Below are positions 480-20,074 of a stretch of 44,441 nt of DNA, one piece after another. Numbering within the stretch: position 1 is the first letter of the stretch; every line of letters starts with the position of its first letter. Position numbers and translations under genes: made by a program. The stretch lies in contig JAUQQA010000017.1 in NCBI GenBank assembly GCA_030550095.1, positions 1 to 44,441 on the forward strand. The letters run 5' to 3'. Under the pieces are notes generated by a model that was not told where the DNA came from, did no database searches, and was given only the letters and a program-made list of their open reading frames with translations. Origin of the DNA: Chloroflexota bacterium (GTDB taxonomy: Bacteria; Chloroflexota; Anaerolineae; J036; Brachytrichaceae).

Positions 480-2690
480 CTAGGCTCGCTTCACGGCAGT
501 GACAATCTCGCCATTCAGTTGGAACTTAACCTGCATTCGCTTGCCTGGCATATTGCCTTGGACAACTTTGATGTCGAATCGGTATCTCTTTTGCGTCTTT
601 GCATCCTGCACAACCCCGTAGCGCTTGTCAGGTCTGATCTCGACGATTACACCTTCTAGCCACTGTGTAGAGTTAGGCCCCGCCGTGCTGCCCAACGAGC
701 GAATAGCTGGAGGTGAGGGTAGGGATTTCTGCACACCACTCGGATGCGGCAAAACAGGCCGGTCACGGTATTCATTGAGCTTCTTCCCAGTGCGTGGGTC
801 GCGGCGCTCGATCTCCATATAACGGGTCTTGCTGGCAAGAACTCCGACCTCTGGTCCAGGCCAGCTTAGCATGGCAAAAAGTTCGCGGATGTGCAACTGT
901 TGCTCAAATCCTTGAGGGGTGCCACCTGTCACCCAGTGCTTAAATGCCTGTATGACATCGGCGATCTGCTGGGTATCTGCCAGGGTACTATGAACCGCCC
1001 AGTTACCGCTCTCGTCAAATAAGCGCGTGTAGCGCGCACGGCGATCGACCAAATTCAGTGTGCTTCGGATACTAACGGCACCCATGCCATAGGGCTTTGC
1101 CATACCGAGCTTGAGGCGGTAGTGGGGGTCTGAGGCTAGGAGTAGGATCCAAGCTAACGCGCCGAGCTCATAGGGACGCAAGTTGTCAAAGTAGATGCGG
1201 AAAGTGAAGTCCGCACCTTTTTTAACGGCTTTGATGCGTGTGTACTGTGTCTTGTGGCGCTGGAGCTTCTGTTCGTCCCCTTCCTCTACCTGGTCAATGG
1301 TGACTTCGCCGCGGTTCCAGTACAGTTTGTATCCGCGAATGGGCGTATCGTCGTTATAATTCAAGAGCTTGGCTTTGTCATCAGGATTGGGTTGGCAGAG
1401 ATAGTGTTGGAACGTAGTTGGCTTCGGAGTAGAGAGCACGCGCGGCGTGATCTCGCGCTCGAAAGGGTCAGGCAAATTGCCTGCATAGAGCCCATCAGTA
1501 AATGAGACGCGCCCGGCATGGGCAATGGTTCTATTTCTGCCGCGTCGGGTATAGCCGAAGATCGACTCGGCAAGGTCAACATCATCCCGACCCTGAGGGC
1601 GAAATTCAGCGGGGATGTGGTCTGCGATGCTTTTACGGTAGGGCAAACGCATCATCAGAGTGTGCCCAAAGAAAAGAAGCCTGTTTTTTTGGTCGAGCAG
1701 GTAGAACACGGGGTGCATGTCCTGGAGCACGCCCTTGTCGCCAAGGAGCTTCTTTTGCCCCTCGGTGAGCTGGTCGAGGTAGTCACGATCGAGGGCAACT
1801 GGTCTACCCTCATCGTCCTTAAATCTTAGGGGCAGCCAAGCCTCTGGGGGGATGTCCTCGTCTGGTGCAAGGATGACGGCTTCATGACGTTTCTTGTCTA
1901 TGTGCCCGCTCTTAAGCAGAACGCCCTCCAGAAAGTCTGGTTTTGGCGTTGCTGAAGCCTCAATGACAGGGGCATAGCGGATCCTTAGGAAGCCGCCTTT
2001 TACGTCTTGTAGTTCGTATTTACCCACCTTGACGTAGATCAGGCACGCACTCTTCAGCCCTATGCCCCGTCCTTTTGGCCAAGGCTGCAACTCGTGCTTG
2101 ATCGGGTTCAGACGATCGTGGGAGATTCGACACCAGCCCACGCCATCTTGGGTCTGCTTTGCGGGCTGAATGTACCACTCACCATCCGCCCCCTTACGGA
2201 TGAAGCCTGCCTTCACACGAGGGGTAAACGAGTGCTCTGGGTCTGATGGGTCAGACTCCATAATATGTCCACGATACTGGACACCGAGACTTGTGGTGTC
2301 AAACGCTCGGTAGACCAGCTTTCGGTCGGTGACGAAGCCAAATCGGGCATTGCTGATGATCTCCGTCATCATGCGGAAAAGCCCGCGCAAGGAGCTAGCC
2401 GGGATGCGCGGTGTCTTCTGCTCGTCTATAGAGAAGAAGTCGAGGCGATCGCGCGTTGTCTCTGCAGTAGGGTCATCTACTTTCATCGGCCCTCGAATGA
2501 AGCAGGGGGTTTCTGTGGTGAGCGTGCAATCGAACCAACCTGAGAAAACAGGTTGGTCTCCATCTTCTGTCCAGAATCGGTCATGAGCTAGAGGCGGTGG
2601 TGCAATGCGTACATGTTCTGGCAACGGCACGAAGTTGTAGGGCGCGCAGGCAGTGCGCTCGGGTCGAGTTGGATTGGTGTGCTTGACCAT
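480..2690 (-). CDS. TIGR03986-type RAMP (Cas7-like) protein with a C-terminal OB/cold-shock-like domain
   Basis: This is a 736-residue subunit of the type III effector. The N-terminus APYNFVPLPE (residues 16-25) is characteristic of the TIGR03986 family of CRISPR-associated RAMP proteins, which I infer is related to the group 7 proteins found in III-D loci. RAMP signatures include RIPASSLRGLFRMM (about 95-108) and a glycine loop GMAKPYGMGAV. The last 60 or so residues form a separate small beta domain, with WLEGVIVEIRPDKRYGVV followed by PGKRMQVKF. This reads like a cold-shock or OB fold and could bind RNA. The ATG overlaps the stop of csx19 as TAATG, so translation is probably coupled. No catalytic residue can be assigned from sequence alone. 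Confidence 0.85.
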   Translation of the reverse strand: MVKHTNPTRPERTACAPYNFVPLPEHVRIAPPPLAHDRFWTEDGDQPVFSGWFDCTLTTETPCFIRGPMKVDDPTAETTRDRLDFFSIDEQKTPRIPASSLRGLFRMMTEIISNARFGFVTDRKLVYRAFDTTSLGVQYRGHIMESDPSDPEHSFTPRVKAGFIRKGADGEWYIQPAKQTQDGVGWCRISHDRLNPIKHELQPWPKGRGIGLKSACLIYVKVGKYELQDVKGGFLRIRYAPVIEASATPKPDFLEGVLLKSGHIDKKRHEAVILAPDEDIPPEAWLPLRFKDDEGRPVALDRDYLDQLTEGQKKLLGDKGVLQDMHPVFYLLDQKNRLLFFGHTLMMRLPYRKSIADHIPAEFRPQGRDDVDLAESIFGYTRRGRNRTIAHAGRVSFTDGLYAGNLPDPFEREITPRVLSTPKPTTFQHYLCQPNPDDKAKLLNYNDDTPIRGYKLYWNRGEVTIDQVEEGDEQKLQRHKTQYTRIKAVKKGADFTFRIYFDNLRPYELGALAWILLLASDPHYRLKLGMAKPYGMGAVSIRSTLNLVDRRARYTRLFDESGNWAVHSTLADTQQIADVIQAFKHWVTGGTPQGFEQQLHIRELFAMLSWPGPEVGVLASKTRYMEIERRDPRTGKKLNEYRDRPVLPHPSGVQKSLPSPPAIRSLGSTAGPNSTQWLEGVIVEIRPDKRYGVVQDAKTQKRYRFDIKVVQGNMPGKRMQVKFQLNGEIVTAVKRA

Positions 2691-3331
2691 TAGGCTTGCT
2701 CCTCTTCTTCACAGACAGTCAGTTCAACCAAGCGGGTGGCGACAGTGCGGGCGATTTCGTCTGGGGCAAGGTAGTGGCGGACGCGCAAGCATAGGCGCCG
2801 CGCAGCGCTCACATTCAAGTTCGGGTCACTCGACGGGGGGGCGTGACGGATACCCTGAGCGCCCTCACAGACGATCAAGAAGCCAGCGCCTTTCGTCTGT
2901 GCAGTCACGCCTGTCGTGCCCCAGAGCAGGTAATGCTCGTCGTAGTACTCGCAGAAGTCGTACTCGCAGAAGTCGGGCGGGGCAGAGTTCAGGTCGGCAT
3001 TAACATCGTCGGCTATCGTGCGTGCCTGCCAATGACTGTTGTCGCGCCAGACCAGGACCTCACGCCGGGCGTTGAACAAGCGCGCTTCCCACACCAGCTC
3101 TGCGTTCGAGGCGGGGGAACCGCTGTTCGGGATGTCGCTAGAAGTCGCCCACCCTGTGGCTTCGGTGGGCACCCCCCAGATGACCCCATCGGTTTGGGTG
3201 ACCAGCAAGATGTCGTCGGGCTGTGCTTGTTGGCGCAACCAGCTGAGCGGGTCACCTACAATGCAGTGATAGCTCACTTGCGCTCGGCAGGTCAACAAGG
3301 TACGCACGGGGCAGAAGGATCTATGCGGCAT
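2690..3331 (-). CDS. csx19: Csx19 (TIGR03984), type III-D accessory protein
   Basis: This is a 213-residue protein. The match to Csx19 rests on a central pattern: an ARLFNARREVLVWRD strand pair, a later YLLWGT, and LRVRHYLAPDEIA near the C-terminus. Csx19 occurs with Csx10 in subtype III-D; its biochemical role is not established. The ORF is open for another 61 codons upstream, but that stretch lies antisense-like inside the preceding RAMP gene and has no family resemblance. The ATG at 3331 has an AGGAGG site at the right distance, and the gene then overlaps the preceding one by 11 bases. I therefore chose this start. Confidence 0.8.
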   Translation of the reverse strand: MPHRSFCPVRTLLTCRAQVSYHCIVGDPLSWLRQQAQPDDILLVTQTDGVIWGVPTEATGWATSSDIPNSGSPASNAELVWEARLFNARREVLVWRDNSHWQARTIADDVNADLNSAPPDFCEYDFCEYYDEHYLLWGTTGVTAQTKGAGFLIVCEGAQGIRHAPPSSDPNLNVSAARRLCLRVRHYLAPDEIARTVATRLVELTVCEEEEQA

Positions 3332-4835
3332 GTGAAGCCTCCTGAGCGGCAAGCGATTCGTGCAAGGCGGCGACGAAACCCTCCAACTGCGCTCGGTCGC
3401 CGGAGAGGGTGAGACGGTTGTCAGTTTGTTCGATGCGCCACTCGTGCGTGCGCTGACCGTCGCGGTGGACAAGGTCGGCTGCGATGCCTTGCAAGCGCCC
3501 GCGGCCGATGCCAATCTCGCCGCCGAGCGGCAGGTCGCCAGTCCACAGGTCTTTGAGCAAGAGTAAGAGCACGCCGATCTCGTGCGCCTTGGGGTCGCGG
3601 ATGCGCACAGTGAGGGTCAAGCGAGTGTCCTGGCGAGCAAAGGCGGGTTGTTCGTCGAACAAGGCACCCTCGACGACCCCGCCAGTGAAGCGGTCAATGC
3701 GGATGCGGCTTTGGATCAAATCGGTGATGGCGTTGTCGATCTCGCATTCGGCGGTAATGAGGCGGCTAGCATGTGGTTTTGCGGTGCGATCCTGCAGGTC
3801 TGGGCCAAAGAGGTCGTCCACAATTTGCCGCGCTCGATTTGGGTTGAAAGTATTTAGAATGCGCAGCGCTCGACTGCGCAAGGCGCCAGCAAGCGAAGTG
3901 CCTGAAAGGATGGGGCGCCACGCGCCGTCGCGGCGAGCGTGAAGGTGAACGAGGTCTGGGCCGACGTCGTCGCGCCCGGTGTTGCCGCGGATCATGATCG
4001 AGCCGCACAAGGCGAATGTGGCACGCATCTCGAACGAGGCGTGAACGAGGGTCACGGGGCAGACGTCCTGTGCGCCGAACGCGCGCAGCAGGTCTCGCAT
4101 GATGCTGTCGTCCGGATGTGGCTGACCTTGATCGGTCATAGTGCAGACTTGGGTGCTGTGGTCAGGGCGCAGCGGTGCGTTGCCCTCGCGCAGCCAGGCG
4201 ATGAGGTCGTCAGCGCTGTCGGCGAGGCGGTAGCGGCGCACGCGCCAGCAGGAGACGCGCACTGCGCCGTAGCCGCGCTGCTTGCGCTTGCCGATAGCGA
4301 TCTCGCCGTTGGTCAAGCCGGTCAGCGCGGCTGCTAGCGCTTGTAGGGCAGGGGTGTTGTCCTTGTGCTTAAACAAGAGCAGCTCGAAGCGCAGCGGAAA
4401 GCGCGCGCCAGCCGCCCAGGTCTCAATGCTGAACAACGCCTGGTCGGCTGCGGTGCGGGTGTGCGGGTCGAGCTTGACCCCGTCGCGCAGCTCGACCTCG
4501 GCGGGCGCGCCGATGGCGTCATCCACAATGAGCGGGCTTTGTTCGCCGTCCTCGTCGCCCTTGGCGCCGCCAAAGAGAGCAACATCGAGGGCATGGTTTG
4601 AATTGGTCACGCGGCGAAGGTAGGCGCGCAGCGCGCCGGCGAGCGAGCTGCCGGTGAGCAGCGGACAAGTAGGGTCGAAGCTGTCGCGTAGGAGTGGCAA
4701 GTTGGTGTCGTCACTGCTATCGCCAGCGCCAAAGTGAGCAGGAGAAAGCAGGACGAGCTCACCCTCAACAACGATGCGCTCAGCGATCTGGCGAGACTTT
4801 GAGGGATGCCAAAACGCTTCATTTGAAACAGTCAC
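3321..4835 (-). CDS. Tandem-RAMP Cas7-like protein of the type III effector
   Basis: This 504-residue protein contains two RAMP (Cas7-like) units in a row. Each has the same helix motif, LTGSSLAGALRAYLRR in the first half and LSGTSLAGALRSRALR in the second. Each also has its own glycine-rich loop, RGYGAV in the first and IGIGRGRLQG in the second. It would occupy two backbone positions on the crRNA. The start is GTG at 4835, in a GTGA overlap with the stop of csx10. A strong AAGGAGG lies 5 bases upstream, which decides this start. Tandem Cas7 fusions are known in III-D and III-E-like systems. Which backbone position it fills is not clear from sequence. Confidence 0.82.
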   Translation of the reverse strand: MTVSNEAFWHPSKSRQIAERIVVEGELVLLSPAHFGAGDSSDDTNLPLLRDSFDPTCPLLTGSSLAGALRAYLRRVTNSNHALDVALFGGAKGDEDGEQSPLIVDDAIGAPAEVELRDGVKLDPHTRTAADQALFSIETWAAGARFPLRFELLLFKHKDNTPALQALAAALTGLTNGEIAIGKRKQRGYGAVRVSCWRVRRYRLADSADDLIAWLREGNAPLRPDHSTQVCTMTDQGQPHPDDSIMRDLLRAFGAQDVCPVTLVHASFEMRATFALCGSIMIRGNTGRDDVGPDLVHLHARRDGAWRPILSGTSLAGALRSRALRILNTFNPNRARQIVDDLFGPDLQDRTAKPHASRLITAECEIDNAITDLIQSRIRIDRFTGGVVEGALFDEQPAFARQDTRLTLTVRIRDPKAHEIGVLLLLLKDLWTGDLPLGGEIGIGRGRLQGIAADLVHRDGQRTHEWRIEQTDNRLTLSGDRAQLEGFVAALHESLAAQEASHAA

Positions 4836-6532
4836 GGCTCACCTCCTTGGGCTTGGTTGGTTGACTTGGATGCCCTTACGGCGCGGCGGAGCACTTCAGC
4901 GAGCAGACGCAAGGTCAGAGCACGGCGCTGCTCCAGAGAGGGAGTGACCTCGACATCGCCCAGCTGCACTCTAACGACAACTTCGTTGGCGCGAGCCAAC
5001 TTCAGCGTTTGCGCCCATGCGACGGGGTCTTGCTCGTCCAAGGCTTTGGCGATGACCTCGATCCACTGGTTGAAAGGCTGAGCGCTAGGGCGCTGCACAC
5101 GCTGGCTTGAGGTGACTTCGAGGACGCGAGCGCGTTCCCACTGCTCGCGGACGGTTTGGCGCTTCGTTGCGCTCTCGAGGAAACTTTTCAAGCGCGCAGC
5201 CGGCTCTGGGTCGTTCAAGGCGTTGAGGGTGATGCTGCGCAAGCGATTTAGTTGCGTGCGGCTGGGCGGTGGATGTATTTGGAGCTGAGCAGCGCGACTC
5301 AAGCAGAGCTGCTCCAGGCGCTGAGCGAGCAGCCGTTGTGCCATGCGCTCGGCAAGCTGACGACTGAAGGGTTCCGCTAGGGCAACTCTGCTTCCCTGTG
5401 GGTCGGGTTGCGCTTCGATGCACAACTTCGCCCACTGCTGCCAATTGAAAGCAAGGCGACCGAAGCCCTCGTTGAGGCGCTCACCGAGGCCGACCTGCTC
5501 TAGGGCTTGCAATTTGTCGGCAGGAACAACCTGCGCTGCTTTGAGCACGAGCACGCTGCCTGCAGCGAAGGCATGGGCTTGAGGCAAAGGCAAGCCCCAC
5601 TTGCGGTTGAAGCCGCCAACGACTTCGACGCCGACGAAGGCGCGCTCGAGGGTGACCTCGGCGCCTAGCGCTTCGCCGAGTCGCCGGGCGAGATGCTCGG
5701 CATCCACGGTGAATTGACCGTATTGGTTGCGCAGCAGCAAGGGGCTGAGTAAGGTGGCGATCAGCTCTTCCTGTGCGGGTGCAAGGCAACCGCCGACCTC
5801 GCGCCAGCTAGAGTCGGCACGCAGATATTTGAATCGAGCGCGGCCGTAGCCTGCGGTGTGGGCTTTGCCAATCCAGAACTCGCCATTGAGCAGCGGCTCA
5901 AGTGTTTCCTCGTCAGCATCGTCGCACAGGATTGCACCGATGAAGGTCTGTCCTGCGTCGAGGGCGTCATAGCGGTAAACCGCGCCGTCGCCTTTGCGAG
6001 GGCGGCCAAAGTTGCGATTGGCAGTGGCGCGCTGGGTGTGGATCGCAACACGGCGGCGCGGCGAGAGCAAACGCACGCGGGCGCACTCTTCCTCTGGGTC
6101 ACCCAACCAGCAAAACGGAGCCGTGACGCGCTGGTTTGGCTCATCTCCCTCAGGCTGATCGACGGCGAGATCGAAGATCGGGACCTTGTGCTCTTCATCC
6201 TCCCTAGCCTTCACCCGCTGGCTCTTGTTCTGATACCAGGAGCGCGGTGTGGGCAACATGCGCTCAGGCGACTGGACTTCGGGCACGGCTGGGTAGGCGT
6301 TGAGGAAACGGACGTTGCCAAAGAAGAGCCGGCGCGCAACATCGGCTGTGCGCTCGTGGTCGAGCACGTGCTCAAGCGACACTCCTTCGGTCTGGGCGAA
6401 GCGGGTAAACAGGGCGGCGCGGATCACACTGCCGGGGATGTAGGGGTACGACACGCTGCTGTTGGGGTCGCCCTCCACACGCCCAAACAAGGCCGGTGTG
6501 AGCAACTCAACGCGGTAGATCAGCGCTTTCAT
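4832..6532 (-). CDS. csx10: Csx10, Cas5-group RAMP and signature protein of subtype III-D
   Basis: This is a 566-residue protein. The N-terminus has the Cas5/Csx10 pattern: a beta strand, GDPNSSVSYPYIPGSVIRA (about residues 21-39), then LFFGNVRF and RMLPTPRSWY. Two glycine loops follow, TAGYGRARF and LNEGFGRL near residue 355. Csx10 is expected to cap the 5' handle of the crRNA. From about residue 385 to the end the sequence becomes strongly helical, with no RAMP motifs. This may be a fused small-subunit-like helical domain or a family-typical tail. The ATG at 6532 has GGGAGAGG upstream and lies 26 bases inside the end of the Csm3-like gene. Confidence 0.85.
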   Translation of the reverse strand: MKALIYRVELLTPALFGRVEGDPNSSVSYPYIPGSVIRAALFTRFAQTEGVSLEHVLDHERTADVARRLFFGNVRFLNAYPAVPEVQSPERMLPTPRSWYQNKSQRVKAREDEEHKVPIFDLAVDQPEGDEPNQRVTAPFCWLGDPEEECARVRLLSPRRRVAIHTQRATANRNFGRPRKGDGAVYRYDALDAGQTFIGAILCDDADEETLEPLLNGEFWIGKAHTAGYGRARFKYLRADSSWREVGGCLAPAQEELIATLLSPLLLRNQYGQFTVDAEHLARRLGEALGAEVTLERAFVGVEVVGGFNRKWGLPLPQAHAFAAGSVLVLKAAQVVPADKLQALEQVGLGERLNEGFGRLAFNWQQWAKLCIEAQPDPQGSRVALAEPFSRQLAERMAQRLLAQRLEQLCLSRAAQLQIHPPPSRTQLNRLRSITLNALNDPEPAARLKSFLESATKRQTVREQWERARVLEVTSSQRVQRPSAQPFNQWIEVIAKALDEQDPVAWAQTLKLARANEVVVRVQLGDVEVTPSLEQRRALTLRLLAEVLRRAVRASKSTNQAQGGEP

Positions 6533-7211
6533 GTTTAGCCTCTCCCTTCACAGTTTTGACGAACTGATCGAACGCCGAATCGGTGATGTCTGCCCCTGCC
6601 CGCAGGAGCCGAACCTCTTTGAGACGCCCGCGCCCGCGGTTGCGCCCGCTGCCGACGCGGCGCAGCGCCAATGCGCAGGCGCACAGCAGACCGAGCTCGA
6701 TGTCTGTGGGCTGGCGTTTGAACACCAAATCGGCGGTGAAGGTTTGTTCGCGGATGAGCACACGCGCAGCGCGCAGGCTGCCCTCTTGAGGTGCGCCGTC
6801 TGGGTCGATGCTCGTTTGTCGACGGATATCGGTGAGCGCACCCAGAACGTCGGCGGGAGAAAGCTTGCCCCTGCGCACCTCAGCGGCTACTGCCTCGCAG
6901 AGCTGGTCGGGCAGGCGGGCATCGCCGATGTGGAGCACACCCTCACCGTCAACCAAGCCGCCAGGGATGCCGAACAGCTGCTGCGCTGCCTGGAGAAGCA
7001 ACTGGAGATTGGGGCAACCCTGCACCTCCAACGCAAACAAGATGTTGGCGCACTCCTCGACGAGCAGCCCTTTCAGGGTTCGCCCGCGCATGAAGGGCAG
7101 CCCAGTGGTGCTGTCGTACTCGATCTCATCATCAACCAGACCAGCGACGCCGTCGCCGCGGGCAAGGGTGGCGTCGCTAGCGAACGTGAAGCGCAGGTGT
7201 AGGGTGTTCAT
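6507..7211 (-). CDS. Csm3-like Cas7 backbone protein
   Basis: This 234-residue protein is a single RAMP unit. The motif GLPFMRGRTLKGLLVEEC (about residues 37-54) is the usual Csm3/Cmr4 helix preceded by a loop. Acidic residues DDEIEYD (about 27-33) lie where Csm3 carries its RNA-cleaving aspartate. A glycine-arginine loop, GSGRNRGRGRL, is near the C-terminus. By homology it forms the repeated backbone along the crRNA and may cut target RNA at regular spacing. It overlaps the stop of cas10 as ATGA and overlaps csx10 by 26 bases, so all three are probably co-translated. Confidence 0.85.
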   Translation of the reverse strand: MNTLHLRFTFASDATLARGDGVAGLVDDEIEYDSTTGLPFMRGRTLKGLLVEECANILFALEVQGCPNLQLLLQAAQQLFGIPGGLVDGEGVLHIGDARLPDQLCEAVAAEVRRGKLSPADVLGALTDIRRQTSIDPDGAPQEGSLRAARVLIREQTFTADLVFKRQPTDIELGLLCACALALRRVGSGRNRGRGRLKEVRLLRAGADITDSAFDQFVKTVKGEAKHESADLPR

Positions 7212-9022
7212 GCTTCTTCTGGCTCGGGCTGAAGATCTAGCGTCTCGAGATCAAAGTGCTCGATCGGCAGGTGGAGGTCCATCAGTTCGACGGCGTCGAA
7301 GTAAGCGCAGCGGGCAAGCGATCCGTTGCTGGAGCTATCCAGCCAGCCTGTTCTCCGATGCTTGCCCTTGTCACCTTCAGCCAATTCAGGCAGTTCAGCA
7401 TCGCCGTAAATGGCAACGAACCTCTCAACCGCGTTTGGTCCTTGGCGCAGCGCTTCACGCAGGGCTTTGACTTTGTTGCGGCGCTGCGCCCAGTTGCTCT
7501 CCTGAAAGGCGCGGGTGAGGCGCTCGACAATGGTCCACGTCCGAGCAGTCTCTGCAGTGAGCGATGTGCCGTCTTTGGGTTGAGTCAGCCGAACGGGGCG
7601 CAAGGTCAGCTCGCCGTGGGGAGTGCGATATTCGCGGCGACGCATCGCGCTGAGGTCGTCAATCAGTCCGCTGATGGCGATGTGCCAGTCGAGGTAAGCC
7701 CCTTGAGGCTGATTGGTGGTGTCTTGAGCTCGGGCACGCGCGCGCTTCGCGTTGCGGCACAGCTCGTCGGCAAGCTGATAGGCTCGGGCGAAGGGGAAAC
7801 GAGATTTGACCACAGCGACGCCCGCGCAGGCGCTCGGTTGCTCGTCAGGGAGCAGCGCGCCAGCCTTGCACAGTGCCTCGGCTGCGCGATCAGCAAAGAG
7901 GGTGAGATATCTGGTGGTCAAGGAGAGTGCTAGACGGGCGTCGCAGACAAAGGTAACGTCATCGCCGCCAATGATGAGCGGGCGAAACGGCAGGTATTTC
8001 CTGTTGTCATCTGCGAGTACCAGCTCGGGGGGTTCGACGGGCCAGAGATGCTTACCTTGCTTGCGTGCTTGCTCGACTCGGTGCACGAAGTTGGTCAATG
8101 AGTTGAGCATTTCAGTCAAGGTTGTCTCAGCAGCGTCCTGCAAGGCGCGAGAGCGTTTGCGCAGCGCGTCGATGTAGGTGCGATTGTCGTGGGCGTAGCG
8201 TTGCCCAAGGCGTCTCATGGCTTCGCCGAAACCGTTGCCATCTATGTGGACGACAGCGATGAAACTTTGCTCGCCGCGGGTGCGCCCAAGCTGGTCAAGG
8301 TCGCTTGGGAAGTCGAAGTCACCAGCGATTGCTGCGCGGAATTGCTCACACAACTCATCGGTGGCGAGCGGAGCCGCGCGCAGCTTAGCGACGACGCTCG
8401 ACGAGAGGGGCAGGTTGCGGTCCTCCCCGTAGGAGAGGATGTGAGTTGCGGGCAGTCCTGTTGAGCGGCAAGCCGCGGTCACTCCTAGACCAAGCAGGGG
8501 CGCGTCGAAGGGACGGTTCGCTTTTTGCCGATCAAGATCTGCGAAAGCGTGCTGGACAGCAAGATACAATCCGCCGCCGTGACGCTCAGGGTTGAAGCCC
8601 GAGCCGTCTGGGTGTGCGCTCCAGTCGAAGACGTGCTCAGGCGCTGCCGCCCAATCGAAGCACTGGATGGAGAACAGCAGGGTCAACCCCGGCGCGGAGG
8701 CGAGGACGCGCCGAGAATGTTGGCGGACGAACTGGCGCGCTAGCGTCTCGTCCTTGAACAGGACAAGGACGTTGCCGCCCGTTGCGTAGATCACCTCGGC
8801 CTCAAGGTTGTCTCGCTCGATACAGCGCTGAGGGTCGAGTTGCCCGCGGGCTGGGTCGGCGATGTTGTGCTTGGACGCGACTTGCATGATGGTTTCGAGC
8901 GCCCAGGCACCGGTCGCCTGCTTGACCAGCCAGGAGGCGCCGATGTTCTCGGCAAGCCGGTTGCTGGCGAAGATGTAAGATTGGATTTGAGTTGTGTCCA
9001 CGACAACGAGACAGGGCTTCAT
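7208..9022 (-). CDS. cas10: Cas10, cyclic-oligoadenylate synthase subunit without an HD domain
   Basis: This is a 604-residue large subunit. It begins directly with the first palm domain: residues 8-34 carry the YIFASNRLAENIGAS pattern, and YATGGNVLVLF follows at 79-89. The second palm domain has HIDGNGFG (259-266) and the intact catalytic GGDD at 352-355. The GGDD predicts ATP conversion to cyclic oligoadenylates once target RNA is bound. There is no N-terminal HD nuclease domain, so DNA cleavage by this subunit is not expected. Instead of a full four-cysteine zinc finger, only an AACRSTGLPA motif remains near residue 185. The ATG at 9022 has AAGGAG upstream. The length is below that of HD-containing Cas10 proteins. 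Confidence 0.92.
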   Translation of the reverse strand: MKPCLVVVDTTQIQSYIFASNRLAENIGASWLVKQATGAWALETIMQVASKHNIADPARGQLDPQRCIERDNLEAEVIYATGGNVLVLFKDETLARQFVRQHSRRVLASAPGLTLLFSIQCFDWAAAPEHVFDWSAHPDGSGFNPERHGGGLYLAVQHAFADLDRQKANRPFDAPLLGLGVTAACRSTGLPATHILSYGEDRNLPLSSSVVAKLRAAPLATDELCEQFRAAIAGDFDFPSDLDQLGRTRGEQSFIAVVHIDGNGFGEAMRRLGQRYAHDNRTYIDALRKRSRALQDAAETTLTEMLNSLTNFVHRVEQARKQGKHLWPVEPPELVLADDNRKYLPFRPLIIGGDDVTFVCDARLALSLTTRYLTLFADRAAEALCKAGALLPDEQPSACAGVAVVKSRFPFARAYQLADELCRNAKRARARAQDTTNQPQGAYLDWHIAISGLIDDLSAMRRREYRTPHGELTLRPVRLTQPKDGTSLTAETARTWTIVERLTRAFQESNWAQRRNKVKALREALRQGPNAVERFVAIYGDAELPELAEGDKGKHRRTGWLDSSSNGSLARCAYFDAVELMDLHLPIEHFDLETLDLQPEPEEA

Positions 9023-9040
9023 AGATCTCCTTCCAGGGTT

Positions 9041-10267
9041 TCAGTCTCGGGTTTGGTCACGAATCCATTCCGCGATGCGGTCACCAAGCTCGGCGAGGTC
9101 GCCGCAACCAAAAACGCGGATTTGGTTTTGGTTGTCTGGGTCGATCTGCGCGCGGGCTTCGCGTTGGATGCTGAGGGGGTCTTTGTAAGTACACACCAGC
9201 GCAACCCGCGCCTGGTCGCCGCCGATTTGGCGCGCGCGCAAGATCGCCTCAAAGAGTTTGAGCTTCAAGGCGCTGCGCTCTTCAGCAGTGGTGCAGCTGA
9301 AGACGAACGGTTGATAGCCTCGTACCGCGACGACGTCGAGTTCAAAGTCGATTTCCTTGGTCTTCACACCGTGGAATACCTCTTGAGGGCGCACTTCGTC
9401 AGGCAAGTTTTGCACGACGTGCAAGACGTAGCTCTCTAGCCAGGCACCGTCGAGCCACTTGCAAAAGTCCTCCGTTTTCGAGAAACTCTTAGCGGCTTTT
9501 GCTTGCTCCAGCTTGACTTGTGATGCCTCGATGCCAAGTTCGCGCTGGAGCGCTGCTGTGACTTGAGGGAGATCGCCGACTGGCAAGTCGAGGGTTTTTT
9601 GCTTAAGCTGCCCTTCGCTCAGCCAATCTCTAGAGTTTTGTCTTCTTAGGGGTTGCAGCACCTGCTCCTTCCACTTCTGATAGCGAGGAGACTGAACCCC
9701 CTTTGTGCAGTCGTCGGTGTAGGACAGGGCGATCTCGCGCGCGGTGCCCGGAAACACTGGTTGGACACGAGAATGTCCTAGCGACCAGCCGTGGAGCTTG
9801 AGCATCTCTTCGAGAGTGAGACGGAGCTTGTCGCCGACATACTTGCTCTCTTCCTGAGGTTGATCGAAGACAAGCACCTGCCGGCGCGCGTCCAAGTAAG
9901 AGGCAGACCACTCAGCTCGATTGCGTTGACTCCACTGCTCGACAGCGCGGTAGGCGTGGATCGCCATTGCCTTTGTGCCGCCGGTGTAGTGCAAGGAGAC
10001 ACGGTGGGGCTTGTGTTCCTCGAGGGCACTAGTAATTTCGTCGAAGATCGAGCGAGGGCTAGACTCCTCGACTTCGACGAGATCTGCATGGATACTCAGG
10101 ACTTGCTGTAGTTGCTCGGCAATTGTCTTTGTGCTGGCGGAATGCACCAGCAACACACGTGCAGGTTGGAGCACCCGCGCGGCGACGTAGTTAGGTAATG
10201 GGTTGCCGCCAACCAAGAGGATCATTAGCTGCAGTTCATGATGCTTCTCTACTGATTTGTCCTGCAT
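9041..10267 (-). CDS. Can2/Card1-like protein: CARF domain plus PD-(D/E)XK-like domain with altered active site
   Basis: This 408-residue protein is the first gene of the cas operon. The N-terminal CARF domain has LLVGGNPLPNYVAA and the ligand-loop motif YTGGTKAM (94-101), typical of the DUF1887/Can2/Card1 group. The C-terminal part retains the nuclease-fold landmarks WLESYV (E278) and ELDVVAVRG (D311). Where family nucleases have E-x-K, this protein reads SCT (324-326). Lysines at 335 and 337 on the next helix might substitute, as migrated lysines do in other PD-(D/E)XK enzymes. In relatives, cOA binding switches on DNA and RNA cleavage; here activity is uncertain. The ATG at 10267 has a near-ideal AAGGAGGTG site. 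Confidence 0.85.
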   Translation of the reverse strand: MQDKSVEKHHELQLMILLVGGNPLPNYVAARVLQPARVLLVHSASTKTIAEQLQQVLSIHADLVEVEESSPRSIFDEITSALEEHKPHRVSLHYTGGTKAMAIHAYRAVEQWSQRNRAEWSASYLDARRQVLVFDQPQEESKYVGDKLRLTLEEMLKLHGWSLGHSRVQPVFPGTAREIALSYTDDCTKGVQSPRYQKWKEQVLQPLRRQNSRDWLSEGQLKQKTLDLPVGDLPQVTAALQRELGIEASQVKLEQAKAAKSFSKTEDFCKWLDGAWLESYVLHVVQNLPDEVRPQEVFHGVKTKEIDFELDVVAVRGYQPFVFSCTTAEERSALKLKLFEAILRARQIGGDQARVALVCTYKDPLSIQREARAQIDPDNQNQIRVFGCGDLAELGDRIAEWIRDQTRD

Positions 10268-10387
10268 GTTTTTTCACCTCCTTATTGTGCTCAAGGAATC
10301 AGTTCATTCTCTTTTTGCCCAACGCACAGCTTGCACGAACACTGGTAAGCTGCTGCCCCCTCCACTGCGCGCTGGATTCGCGGAGAA

Positions 10388-10416
10388 AGTGTATGGGAGC
10401 AGCAAAGCACTGTCAA
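10388..10416 (-). promoter_or_regulatory. Sigma70-type promoter of the cas operon
   Basis: Reading the minus strand, a consensus -35 TTGACA (10411-10416) is followed by exactly 17 bases and a -10 TACACT (10388-10393). Transcription should start near 10381, giving a leader of about 115 bases before the ATG at 10267. This is the best-looking promoter in the window. The -35 box forms one arm of the inverted repeat at 10411-10460. Confidence 0.75.
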
Positions 10417-10460
10417 CGGGGCAAAGCCCTGAAATCGATCAGGGTGATCCCCTGTTGACA
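10411..10460. repeat. Nested inverted repeats over the cas promoter -35 box (candidate operator)
   Basis: The outer arms are TGTCAAC (10411-10417) and GTTGACA (10454-10460). They are extended inward by GGGG (10418-10421) and CCCC (10449-10452), with one unpaired T. The inner arms are CCCTGA (10427-10432) and TCAGGG (10439-10444). The element lies between the cas promoter and the stop of the CARF-HTH gene. It could bind a dimeric regulator such as that protein, or act as the transcription end of that gene, although no T-run follows. Confidence 0.55.
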
Positions 10461-10475
10461 AAGCCGCCTCACAGA

Positions 10476-11429
10476 TTACCTTTCAGTCAAAAGCCTAGCA
10501 AATTTTGCCTGCAAAAAATGTTTATCCACCCTTTCTTGTTGACCCAGCTCCCACGCGATGCGGCATTCCTCGTAAATCTGGCGCAAATGCGACTCAAGCG
10601 TCTTGGGGCTTATGCCCAACTGTTGACTCACGGATCCATATGTGGCGCCGGGTTGCGCAATGGCGCGCAGCACCTCGCGTTGACGAGAGGAAAGCCGCGC
10701 GATCACCTGCTGCGCGCAGCGCACATCGTGCGCGCTTGGACGAGGTTGCCGCTCCACTTGCAAAAGCTTCTCAGGTTCAAGCCGTGCCGCCTCCTGCAAG
10801 CCGGGCGCAAACATGACCATGGGCATCAGCGGCACACGCACAAGGCGCACAGGAGGATCTGCCGAGCTGCGGTGCATCACCGCCCCCTCCCCAGCGCGCT
10901 CACGAAGCTCAGGCGGTGTGTAGAGATGAAAGCACTCATCGTGAAGGTCGAACAACAACATCGCTGCCGAAAGCGCTTGCAGCGCCAACAAACGCGGTCC
11001 GCCCGTCACCAGCAGACGGACGGTGAATTCCTCCTGCTTGAGCGTCTTCAGCAGGCGGTGGGTGGTCAACCAGATCGCATTGGCAGCTTCGGGGTGATCA
11101 ACGCGCTCAATCGCTTGACCCACAACGCTTTCGTGCACCCCGCTAACCCAACCAGCAGGCAGCTTGCGGACTGTAAATGATTCAAAAAGAATACCGCCGT
11201 ACCGTGGGTAGCGCTCGAACTCCTCACGTAACCGTGCTAAACTGCGCGCAACGCGGGGGTCGCTTGGCGCAAGATGCAGGGCATACACGCGCTGCGGCAC
11301 AGTGCCCTGCTGAATCAAGGCATCGAGAGCAAAAGTCAGCACTTGCGGCTTTCCGCCTAGAGTTGCCACAAGCGCAACGCGTTCTTCTGAAGCAGAAGGG
11401 AAGGATTGATCCTGGGTCGTCATGGGCAA
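10476..11429 (-). CDS. CARF (NE0113-like) sensor fused to a LuxR-type HTH DNA-binding domain
   Basis: This 317-residue protein has an N-terminal CARF domain of the NE0113 type. It shows VALVATLGGKPQVLTFALDAL (18-38) and VTGGPRLLALQALSAAMLLF (141-160), the strand-plus-helix that contacts the cyclic nucleotide. Residues 245-293 form a LuxR/GerE-type helix-turn-helix: LSSRQREVLRAIA, then GISPKTLESHLRQIY. It is predicted to sense the Cas10 product and bind DNA, most simply at the palindrome in front of the cas operon. TTG at 11429 lies 9 bases after an AGGAGG site; an ATG two codons later (11423) is spaced 15 bases and is the alternative. Its start overlaps that of the divergent Csx3 gene. Confidence 0.85.
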   Translation of the reverse strand: MPMTTQDQSFPSASEERVALVATLGGKPQVLTFALDALIQQGTVPQRVYALHLAPSDPRVARSLARLREEFERYPRYGGILFESFTVRKLPAGWVSGVHESVVGQAIERVDHPEAANAIWLTTHRLLKTLKQEEFTVRLLVTGGPRLLALQALSAAMLLFDLHDECFHLYTPPELRERAGEGAVMHRSSADPPVRLVRVPLMPMVMFAPGLQEAARLEPEKLLQVERQPRPSAHDVRCAQQVIARLSSRQREVLRAIAQPGATYGSVSQQLGISPKTLESHLRQIYEECRIAWELGQQERVDKHFLQAKFARLLTER

Positions 11430-12561
11430 TGCTTTAAACCTCCTACCTGCAATCCTGATCGGCGGGCCACCTCACTCCGGCAAGTCTGTGCTTGCCTATA
11501 GTTTGTCTCAAGCGCTGCGCAAGCGCAACTTGGCGCATTATTTGTTACGCGCTGCGCCTGACGGCGAGGGCGATTGGGCGCAGGAAATGGCATGGGAGCA
11601 CGTGCAAGCCATCCGTTTCAAAGGGGAATGGGATGCGCATTGGGTGCAGGTGGTGTGCCGCGATATCGCAGCACGCACACTCCCGTTGCTCGTGGACGTG
11701 GGCGGTCGCCCCCGCGAGGATCAGCTTGCGATCTTCGACCAGTGCACCGCCGCCATCCTGCTCACACCTGATGAAGCTTCGGCGCGCGAATGGCGCGCGC
11801 TCGTCACCCAGCGCGGCTTGCCCGTGCTCGCCGACTTGCGCTCGACGTTGACAGACAGAGACGCACTCCTGCTCAGCGAGGGCGGTGAGCTGCGCGGTGT
11901 GATCAGCGGCTTGCAGCGCGGCGTAATCGCGCAAGGCCCGACTTTCGCGGCGCTGGTCGAGCGCATTGCGCGTCTTTTCCACTTTTCGCACGACGAGATC
12001 ACCCATGCCCACCTCGCGCGAAAACCCGAGGGAGTCGAAGTCGTGCGCTTTGATTTGCTTGTGCAGGACGCACAACTCGCAGAGAAAAGCCGCTTTCGAT
12101 TTGATCAACTTGAGGCAATTTTGGCGCGCGTTCCCACGGGGGTGCCCATCGCCACCTACGGACGCATCCCAGCTTGGTTAGCAACAGCACTCGGCGCGCG
12201 CCGCGACCTGCGTTGGCAATTCGACGCGCGGCTTGGGTGGGTGCGCACGCCGCACTTCGTCATGGCCCAAGTTGGTGAGCAATTGCCTGCGCTCCAAGCT
12301 GGGCTGCGCTTTACACTCAAGCAAAACAACGCGCAGAGCTTCCACCTTGATGTCTCGCGCGCCGAGTACTACCTGGACTACAGCGCTATGGAAGACGTGC
12401 GCGTCCCTTTCGTGCCACCCACAGCCCACCTCACCATCAACGGACCAGACACGCGCGCAGGGGGATTGCCGCTTTGGGTTTTTGCCGCGCTTGGGCGCGC
12501 TTATCGCCACTGCGCCGAAGTGCGCACCCAAAACGCAAGCACCCCTTCATCACGTACCTAA
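11422..12561 (+). CDS. csx3: P-loop NTPase fused to Csx3 (ring-nuclease-type) repeats
   Basis: This is a 379-residue protein. Residues 14-22 form a Walker A motif, GGPPHSGKS, and VDVGGRPRE near 91-99 completes a kinase-like P-loop domain of the kind joined to Csx3 in cyanobacteria. Residues from about 204 to 275 match Csx3, with YGRIPAWLATAL (246-257) and FDARLG (267-272) in place of SGRGPIWL and YDPRLG. A second, shorter Csx3-like unit follows, with TINGPD and LPLWVFAALGRAYRH (349-363). Csx3/Crn3 degrades cA4 in tetrameric form, so this protein probably turns off signalling. The ATG at 11422 has only a weak ribosome site. The promoter must lie inside the divergent CARF-HTH gene. Confidence 0.8.
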   Translation: MGNALNLLPAILIGGPPHSGKSVLAYSLSQALRKRNLAHYLLRAAPDGEGDWAQEMAWEHVQAIRFKGEWDAHWVQVVCRDIAARTLPLLVDVGGRPREDQLAIFDQCTAAILLTPDEASAREWRALVTQRGLPVLADLRSTLTDRDALLLSEGGELRGVISGLQRGVIAQGPTFAALVERIARLFHFSHDEITHAHLARKPEGVEVVRFDLLVQDAQLAEKSRFRFDQLEAILARVPTGVPIATYGRIPAWLATALGARRDLRWQFDARLGWVRTPHFVMAQVGEQLPALQAGLRFTLKQNNAQSFHLDVSRAEYYLDYSAMEDVRVPFVPPTAHLTINGPDTRAGGLPLWVFAALGRAYRHCAEVRTQNASTPSSRT

Positions 12562-12669
12562 GTTTTGTTTTGCCCTCTCAGAGAGAAGTTTCTCTGCCCA
12601 GCGTCCAGCAGCGCCAGCAGCGCCTACGTATTCTCAGCGGCACAACACACACACCAGGAGGGTTGCTCT

Positions 12670-20064: not shown

Positions 20065-20074
20065 AGCAACTCAC

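Follow-up and report, generated by a model that had tools for sequence, protein, structure and literature searches.

A candidate CARF-LuxR regulator of bacterial type III CRISPR operons and its four-half-site operator

To our knowledge, little has been established on how bacteria turn on their type III CRISPR operons. In the window, i.e., the whole stretch of 44,441 nucleotides of a Chloroflexota contig that was analysed, a gene for a protein with a CARF domain and a LuxR-type helix-turn-helix (HTH) lies beside a palindrome at the promoter of a type III-D operon, and the question raised by this locus is whether the protein controls the operon, in which direction and in response to which ligand. 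A regulator placed beside an operator of its own CRISPR operon suggests an immune system that adjusts its own production upon virus detection. Judging from sequence, we consider it probable (roughly 0.6) that this protein is a dedicated activator of the adjacent type III operon, controlled by cyclic oligoadenylate (cOA).

The regulator, its operon and its divergent partner

480 to 7211, minus strand: type III-D effector genes, itemised in the following lines
480 to 2690, minus strand: Cas7 of the type III-D operon
2690 to 3514, minus strand: Csx19 of the type III-D operon
3321 to 4835, minus strand: Cas7 of the type III-D operon
4832 to 6532, minus strand: Csx10/Cas5 of the type III-D operon
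6507 to 7211, minus strand: Cas7 of the type III-D operon
7208 to 9022, minus strand: Cas10 (type III-D) with GGDD palm motif (PADLOC Cas10d, 5e-124; translation)
9041 to 10267, minus strand: CARF-PD-(D/E)xK nuclease of the Can2/Card1 type, first gene of the operon (PADLOC CARF4 CARF_PDDEXK, 1e-101; Pfam Card1_endonuc)
10476 to 11423, minus strand: CARF-LuxR regulator, 315 aa, likely start ATG 11423-11421 in the ORF 10476-11429; NE0113-type CARF at about residues 15-215, LuxR/GerE HTH at about 236-290 (GerE match near 243-285), C-terminal helix at 301-314
11422 to 12561, plus strand: AAA-Csx3, a predicted Crn3-type ring nuclease with a P-loop domain (PADLOC C3a67 AAA-Csx3, 2e-88)

The preliminary description had read the regulator as an NE0113-like CARF domain joined to a LuxR-type HTH, of a class other than the winged HTH of Csa3, and the domain models agree on both counts. 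PF09623 (Cas_NE0113) matches with 64.7 bits against a Pfam cut-off of 23, across most of the first 215 residues, and PF00196 (GerE) with 30.7 against 23.5, while the Csa3 model TIGR01884 (NCBIfam) gives 20.7 against a cut-off of 60.2 and Pfam reports no Csa3_N domain at E 0.1. The Pfam model Sigma70_r4_2 is also above its cut-off (29.6 vs 25.7); it and GerE belong to one HTH superfamily. The HTH profile matched LiaR, VraR, NarL and FixJ in the PDB, down to 3.5e-10, and PADLOC labels the protein over its full length as CARF3--CARF PDLC01855 (E 7e-74). Both domains are general among the homologues, with PF09623 matched by 74/74 and GerE by 70/74 at E 0.001 or better.

The AlphaFold2 model of the regulator (74 sequences) has a pLDDT of 92, and its CARF domain matches Cad1-CARF and Sso2081, both cA4-binding, with Z 16-17; Sso2081 is the nearest solved relative of this domain by sequence and is among the nearest by fold. 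Efficient cleavage by Sso2081 requires Thr10-Ser11 of its GTS motif, and a missing GTS is regarded as a sign of non-cleaving CARFs, e.g., Can2 and Card1 (PMC10018336). This ring-nuclease motif I, the mark of Crn1, is present in none of the 84 aligned sequences of the regulator family, nearly all of which have GGQ or GGK (GG[QK]P) in its position. The basic motif II, GG[RP]R, which lies at the dimer axis, is kept in the family, and its R144, aligned with Lys106 of Sso2081, is invariant in the 74-sequence alignment. Because the GTS motif is lost and the basic motif II is retained, the CARF domain looks like a sensor that leaves its ligand uncleaved.

A scan of genome contigs gave one relative (L002), and a plasmid search gave distant Rhodothermus proteins only. 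A protein of the Rhodothermus marinus plasmid pRMAR01 (L161, 5971-6876), whose gene lies directly upstream of csm1, is annotated as a "CRISPR-associated ring nuclease"; it has an HTH tail and GEQP in place of GTS, and is more plausibly a regulator like the present one.

Downstream of the regulator, the Can2/Card1-type gene has a strong Shine-Dalgarno sequence at its start (10267). At the other end of the operon, an open frame at 1-459 on the minus strand (MALELTLFVSTVGTSLYTN...) is cut by the contig end; it matches Cas_APE2256 at 1e-9, keeps the GTS motif I, and is probably a further CARF gene ending the cas operon. Since Cas1 was not found in the source genome, which is 97% complete, the type III system may be without spacer acquisition genes of its own.

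On its other side, the regulator stands head to head with AAA-Csx3, with overlapping start codons. The comparison set comprised 86 loci: that of the window and those of homologues (31-65% identity) retrieved by searching whole genomes. AAA-Csx3 is the divergent neighbour in 80 of these 86 (window counted), at a median start-to-start distance of 30 nt; among the remaining six, the contig ends next to the regulator in three, and AAA-Csx3 has another orientation in two. Ring nucleases that act on cA4 are known from the Csx3/Crn3 family (PMC7371418), and the AAA-Csx3 fusion, which had no match in the PDB by phmmer, would presumably share the ring-nuclease activity.

The operator in the window and across homologous loci

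10388 to 10393, minus strand: -10 element TACACT, after a 17-nt spacer and 20 nt after the operator
10411 to 10416, minus strand: -35 element TTGACA, overlapping half-site 4
10411 to 10460, minus-strand reading TGTCAACAGGG-gatca-CCCTGATC-ga-TTTCAGGG-ctttg-CCCCGTTGACA: putative operator of four half-sites (inverted repeat, congeneric layout, family-operator homology)
10427 to 10444: central dyad CCCTGATCGATTTCAGGG (half-sites 2 and 3), the part most conserved within the genus

Read on the minus strand from 10460 to 10411, the 50-bp inverted repeat is TGTCAACAGGGGATCACCCTGATCGATTTCAGGGCTTTGCCCCGTTGACA, with TTGACA as its last six bases. Its arms (10411-10432 and 10439-10460, gap 6) are complementary at 17 of 22 positions, which was reached in 0/1000 shuffles of the intergenic region. 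TTGACA followed by 17 nt and TACACT is the only sigma70-type site detected in 9000-12600, and the statement in the preliminary description that the repeat includes the -35 of the cas operon is thereby confirmed. The regulator indeed ends next to the repeat, although the gap from its stop codon to the palindrome is 15 nt and not the 16 given there; likewise, the repeat itself stands, but what had been described as a nested palindrome is not two independent nested repeats, as comparison with the homologues resolves it into an operator of four half-sites. The central dyad has no second exact match in the whole 2.35-Mb genome, in which the search for further operator copies returned two-mismatch sites only, at chance level. 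Two further long inverted repeats, matching at 17-18 of 22, lie in the window at 20066 and 22765.

The family operator, 44 bp in length and located just downstream of the regulator, reads CATCAGAG-N4-CTCTGAAA-NN-TTTCAGAG-N4-CTCTGATG, i.e., four half-sites that make up two dyads 22 bp apart. The symmetric motif search after the regulator stop reached a log-likelihood of 549, compared with 73-90 for shuffled sets. Two simpler approaches were set aside: a single-dyad model of 22 nt is real, yet it covers only half of the operator, and a generic dyad scan without a motif model gave a weak signal because the half-sites differ between loci.

For the held-out test, the model was trained on 4/5 of the protein clusters (60% identity) and whole held-out loci were scanned; clusters were held out because phylogenetic relatedness inflates some statistics, and seeds came from the training set only in order to avoid circularity. 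In 51/84 cases, where 1.6 were expected, the best match of the whole held-out locus fell between -20 and +150 nt relative to the regulator stop, so the operator is conserved in most loci in which the regulator occurs, which is the conservation on which the preliminary description had let its reading depend. Elsewhere in 1.03 Mb, just 15 more matches exceeded 13 bits, several of them with a -10 at the right distance, and about a third of the loci have no clear operator with the family model. The window's own site scores low with this model (4 bits, rank 10 in its own locus when held out), because its genus uses a diverged half-site, and what assigns it to the family operator is its internal symmetry, its geometry and two intermediates from the same genus. 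One of these (L032) has the 50-nt layout of the window: its start and end coincide with those in the window and carry GTCAAC and TGACAG, TTCAGGG occupies the centre, and TACACT follows at an equal distance. The other (L033) has the window's layout shortened by one nt.

Within a locus the half-sites are more alike than between loci; this holds for each of the six pairs, direct-repeat pairs among them (p=0.0005 each), as would be expected if one HTH reads all four. In addition, operator distance tracks recognition-helix distance when CARF-domain distance is regressed out (partial Mantel r=0.345, p=0.001), and the regulator is present in 17 of 20 genomes with the operator pattern, compared with 88/396 overall (p=1e-9). 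Operator matches in three genomes (G046, G365, G352) lie beside unrelated genes and were treated as chance. As far as sequence can tell, the architecture, the operator, the fixed promoter geometry described below and the coupling of recognition helix and operator are strongly supported, and we strongly infer that the regulator binds DNA.

The first gene past the operator, considered in 43 loci, is Cas10 in 21, a Can2/Card1-type gene in 10 and Cas6 in 4, followed by RAMPs and mCpol, and from this variety it appears that the operator belongs to type III operon promoters and not to one particular gene. Further operators lie before a Cas10 gene on another contig of one genome (L164, G143:C113; genome G143) and before a RAMP gene in another (L166, G369:C226; genome G369), which means that the regulon can extend to a further operon of type III; regulation of these sites in trans by the regulator of the same genome is possible.

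Several other sites deserve mention. In one locus (L127), an operator-like site about 916 nt before the regulator stop, between the regulator and AAA-Csx3, has its -10 facing AAA-Csx3, which may be co-regulated from such a site in some loci. A strong operator also precedes a Csm1-type Cas10 gene (L170, G191:C82) in a genome in which no regulator was found at E 1e-20. A distant NE0113-HTH subfamily (L055, L056, L060, L061; 26-28% identity, no AAA-Csx3 neighbour) has a different repeated element after the regulator stop, ATAGTAGAGAnCTnCTAC...AGTAGATnTCC...GATG, with a periodicity of about 23 nt, which is perhaps a parallel operator.

Promoter geometry and the mode of control

The best -10 hexamer begins 18-20 nt past the operator in 48/60 operator loci (exactly 19 nt in 33), and this spacing holds whichever cas gene comes next; a -10 lies within 14-24 nt in 50/60 loci, compared with a mean of 14 (maximum 24) when the downstream sequence is shuffled. 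Taking the start of the -10 as -12, the dyads are centred at about -42.5 and -64.5 (about -43 and -66 in the window), with the -35 overlapped by the fourth half-site. In 32/48 homologues the -35 agrees with TTGACA at 3/6 positions or worse, and in the window it is perfect; 41/48 homologues have a -10 with 4/6 matches or better. Class II activator promoters are usually built with a weak -35, a good -10 and a lux-box position overlapping the -35. The class II (lux-box-type) placement is what is found here, with a dyad near -42, overlap with the -35 and, in the 48/60 loci, the fixed distance to the -10; across the homologues, the mostly poor -35, the good -10 and this dyad position form an activator signature.

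In the mechanism that we propose, two LuxR-type HTH dimers, or one tetramer, would occupy the tandem dyads near -42.5 and -64.5, of which the proximal one overlaps the -35, and would assist RNA polymerase at promoters that mostly have a weak -35, i.e., by class II activation like that of LuxR at the lux box. The CARF dimer would sense cOA made by Cas10 and alter the activity of the HTH, and target recognition would then lead to more Cas10, Can2 and effector complex, with the divergent AAA-Csx3, as predicted ring nuclease, serving as the opposing brake. That the regulator activates and does not repress, that its ligand is cOA and that the feedback is positive is what we infer from these features; the window promoter, with its perfect -35, may not need an activator.

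That overlap of half-site 4 with the -35 could also suit a repressor, which would block RNA polymerase from the operator and be released or tightened by cOA, so that the operon is induced or damped, and the window promoter, with its perfect -35, does look strong unaided. The homologues, however, mostly combine a poor -35 with a good -10 and a fixed spacing, which is the activator-dependent pattern, and the sites of repressors are usually placed less strictly; we regard repression as doubtful. The regulator might instead act locally without cOA control, either through another CARF ligand (e.g., SAM-AMP) or by constitutive DNA binding, and the binding of Csa3 to DNA in vitro is indeed independent of cA4 (PMC8844856). 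Yet the neighbours here are a cyclase-competent Cas10 (GGDD), a Can2-type cA4 effector and Csx3, the basic motif II is conserved and the fold is close to that of cA4-binding CARFs, which makes such a regulator improbable.

Membership of the regulator in a Pfam family whose proteins include annotated ring nucleases, with Sso2081 as the closest solved sequence relative of its CARF, could point to a ring nuclease (kin of Crn1/Sso2081) that has an HTH-like tail and is unrelated to the palindrome. We give this little credence, as the GTS motif that marks the activity (PMC10018336) is absent from the 84 aligned sequences and the operator co-varies with the recognition helix. Hardly any weight can be given to an RNA element in the regulator transcript, be it a terminator or a leader hairpin: compared with shuffles the RNA does fold better (z -2.97), but there is neither a U tract nor a terminator call, the repeat is located upstream of the adjoining promoter and in fixed phase with the -10, and the half-sites agree as direct repeats too, which hairpin pairing would not require. 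Both the absent terminator signals and the direct-repeat agreement led us to reject this RNA reading.

Activation under cOA control thus remains our preferred reading for the window. The suggestion in the preliminary description that the alarm molecule of Cas10 adjusts transcription of its own operon is partly supported; the four half-sites, the fixed 19-nt spacing to the -10, the lost ring-nuclease motif and the AAA-Csx3 partner had not been noted there. Its extension to a widespread bacterial one-component switch, in which an alarm nucleotide acts through a CARF-LuxR activator and a four-half-site operator, with positive feedback on the whole type III operon, an AAA-Csx3 brake and, in some genomes, a second operon in trans, is tentative, and we would put it somewhat below even odds.

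Relation to known regulators

CARF proteins of the NE0113 type have already been predicted to be transcription regulators (Makarova et al. 2014, PMC4012209), and according to a 2022 review, Csa3 was the sole experimentally characterised non-nuclease CARF effector (PMC9704534). In the open-access literature, which leaves out many papers, we found no paper on the CARF-LuxR regulator or its operator. The present loci, more than 80 in number, combine a different CARF clade and a different HTH class with a precisely placed operator, a promoter geometry and a partner enzyme, so that feedback by the alarm nucleotide can be put to a direct test with a single protein, a 60-bp fragment and a series of ligands.

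With the NE0113/CARF3 family (PF09623) the regulator shares its membership, but that label comes without HTH or operator, and the HTH class, the operator, the promoter geometry and the pairing with AAA-Csx3 are defined here. The basic motif II is common to the regulator and the Crn1 enzyme Sso2081, whereas the regulator family is without the GTS motif I and has the added HTH. With the LuxR/NarL/FixJ activators on lux-box-like sites it shares the GerE HTH, the dyad at about -42.5 over the -35 and a second site two turns upstream, although their sensors are autoinducer or receiver domains and here the sensor is a CARF domain. CalpL/CalpT/CalpS also give a transcriptional response to a type III signal (PMC12751052) but act through a protease with a SAVED sensor, whereas a single protein would be sensor and regulator here. 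Csa3 of archaeal type I-A loci likewise joins a CARF domain to an HTH, regulates cas genes and binds a promoter that has palindromic sites (PMC8844856); its HTH, however, is a winged one of another class, in contrast to the LuxR-type HTH found here, which occurs with type III operons of bacteria, with four half-sites at a fixed distance from the -10 and with the AAA-Csx3 partner.
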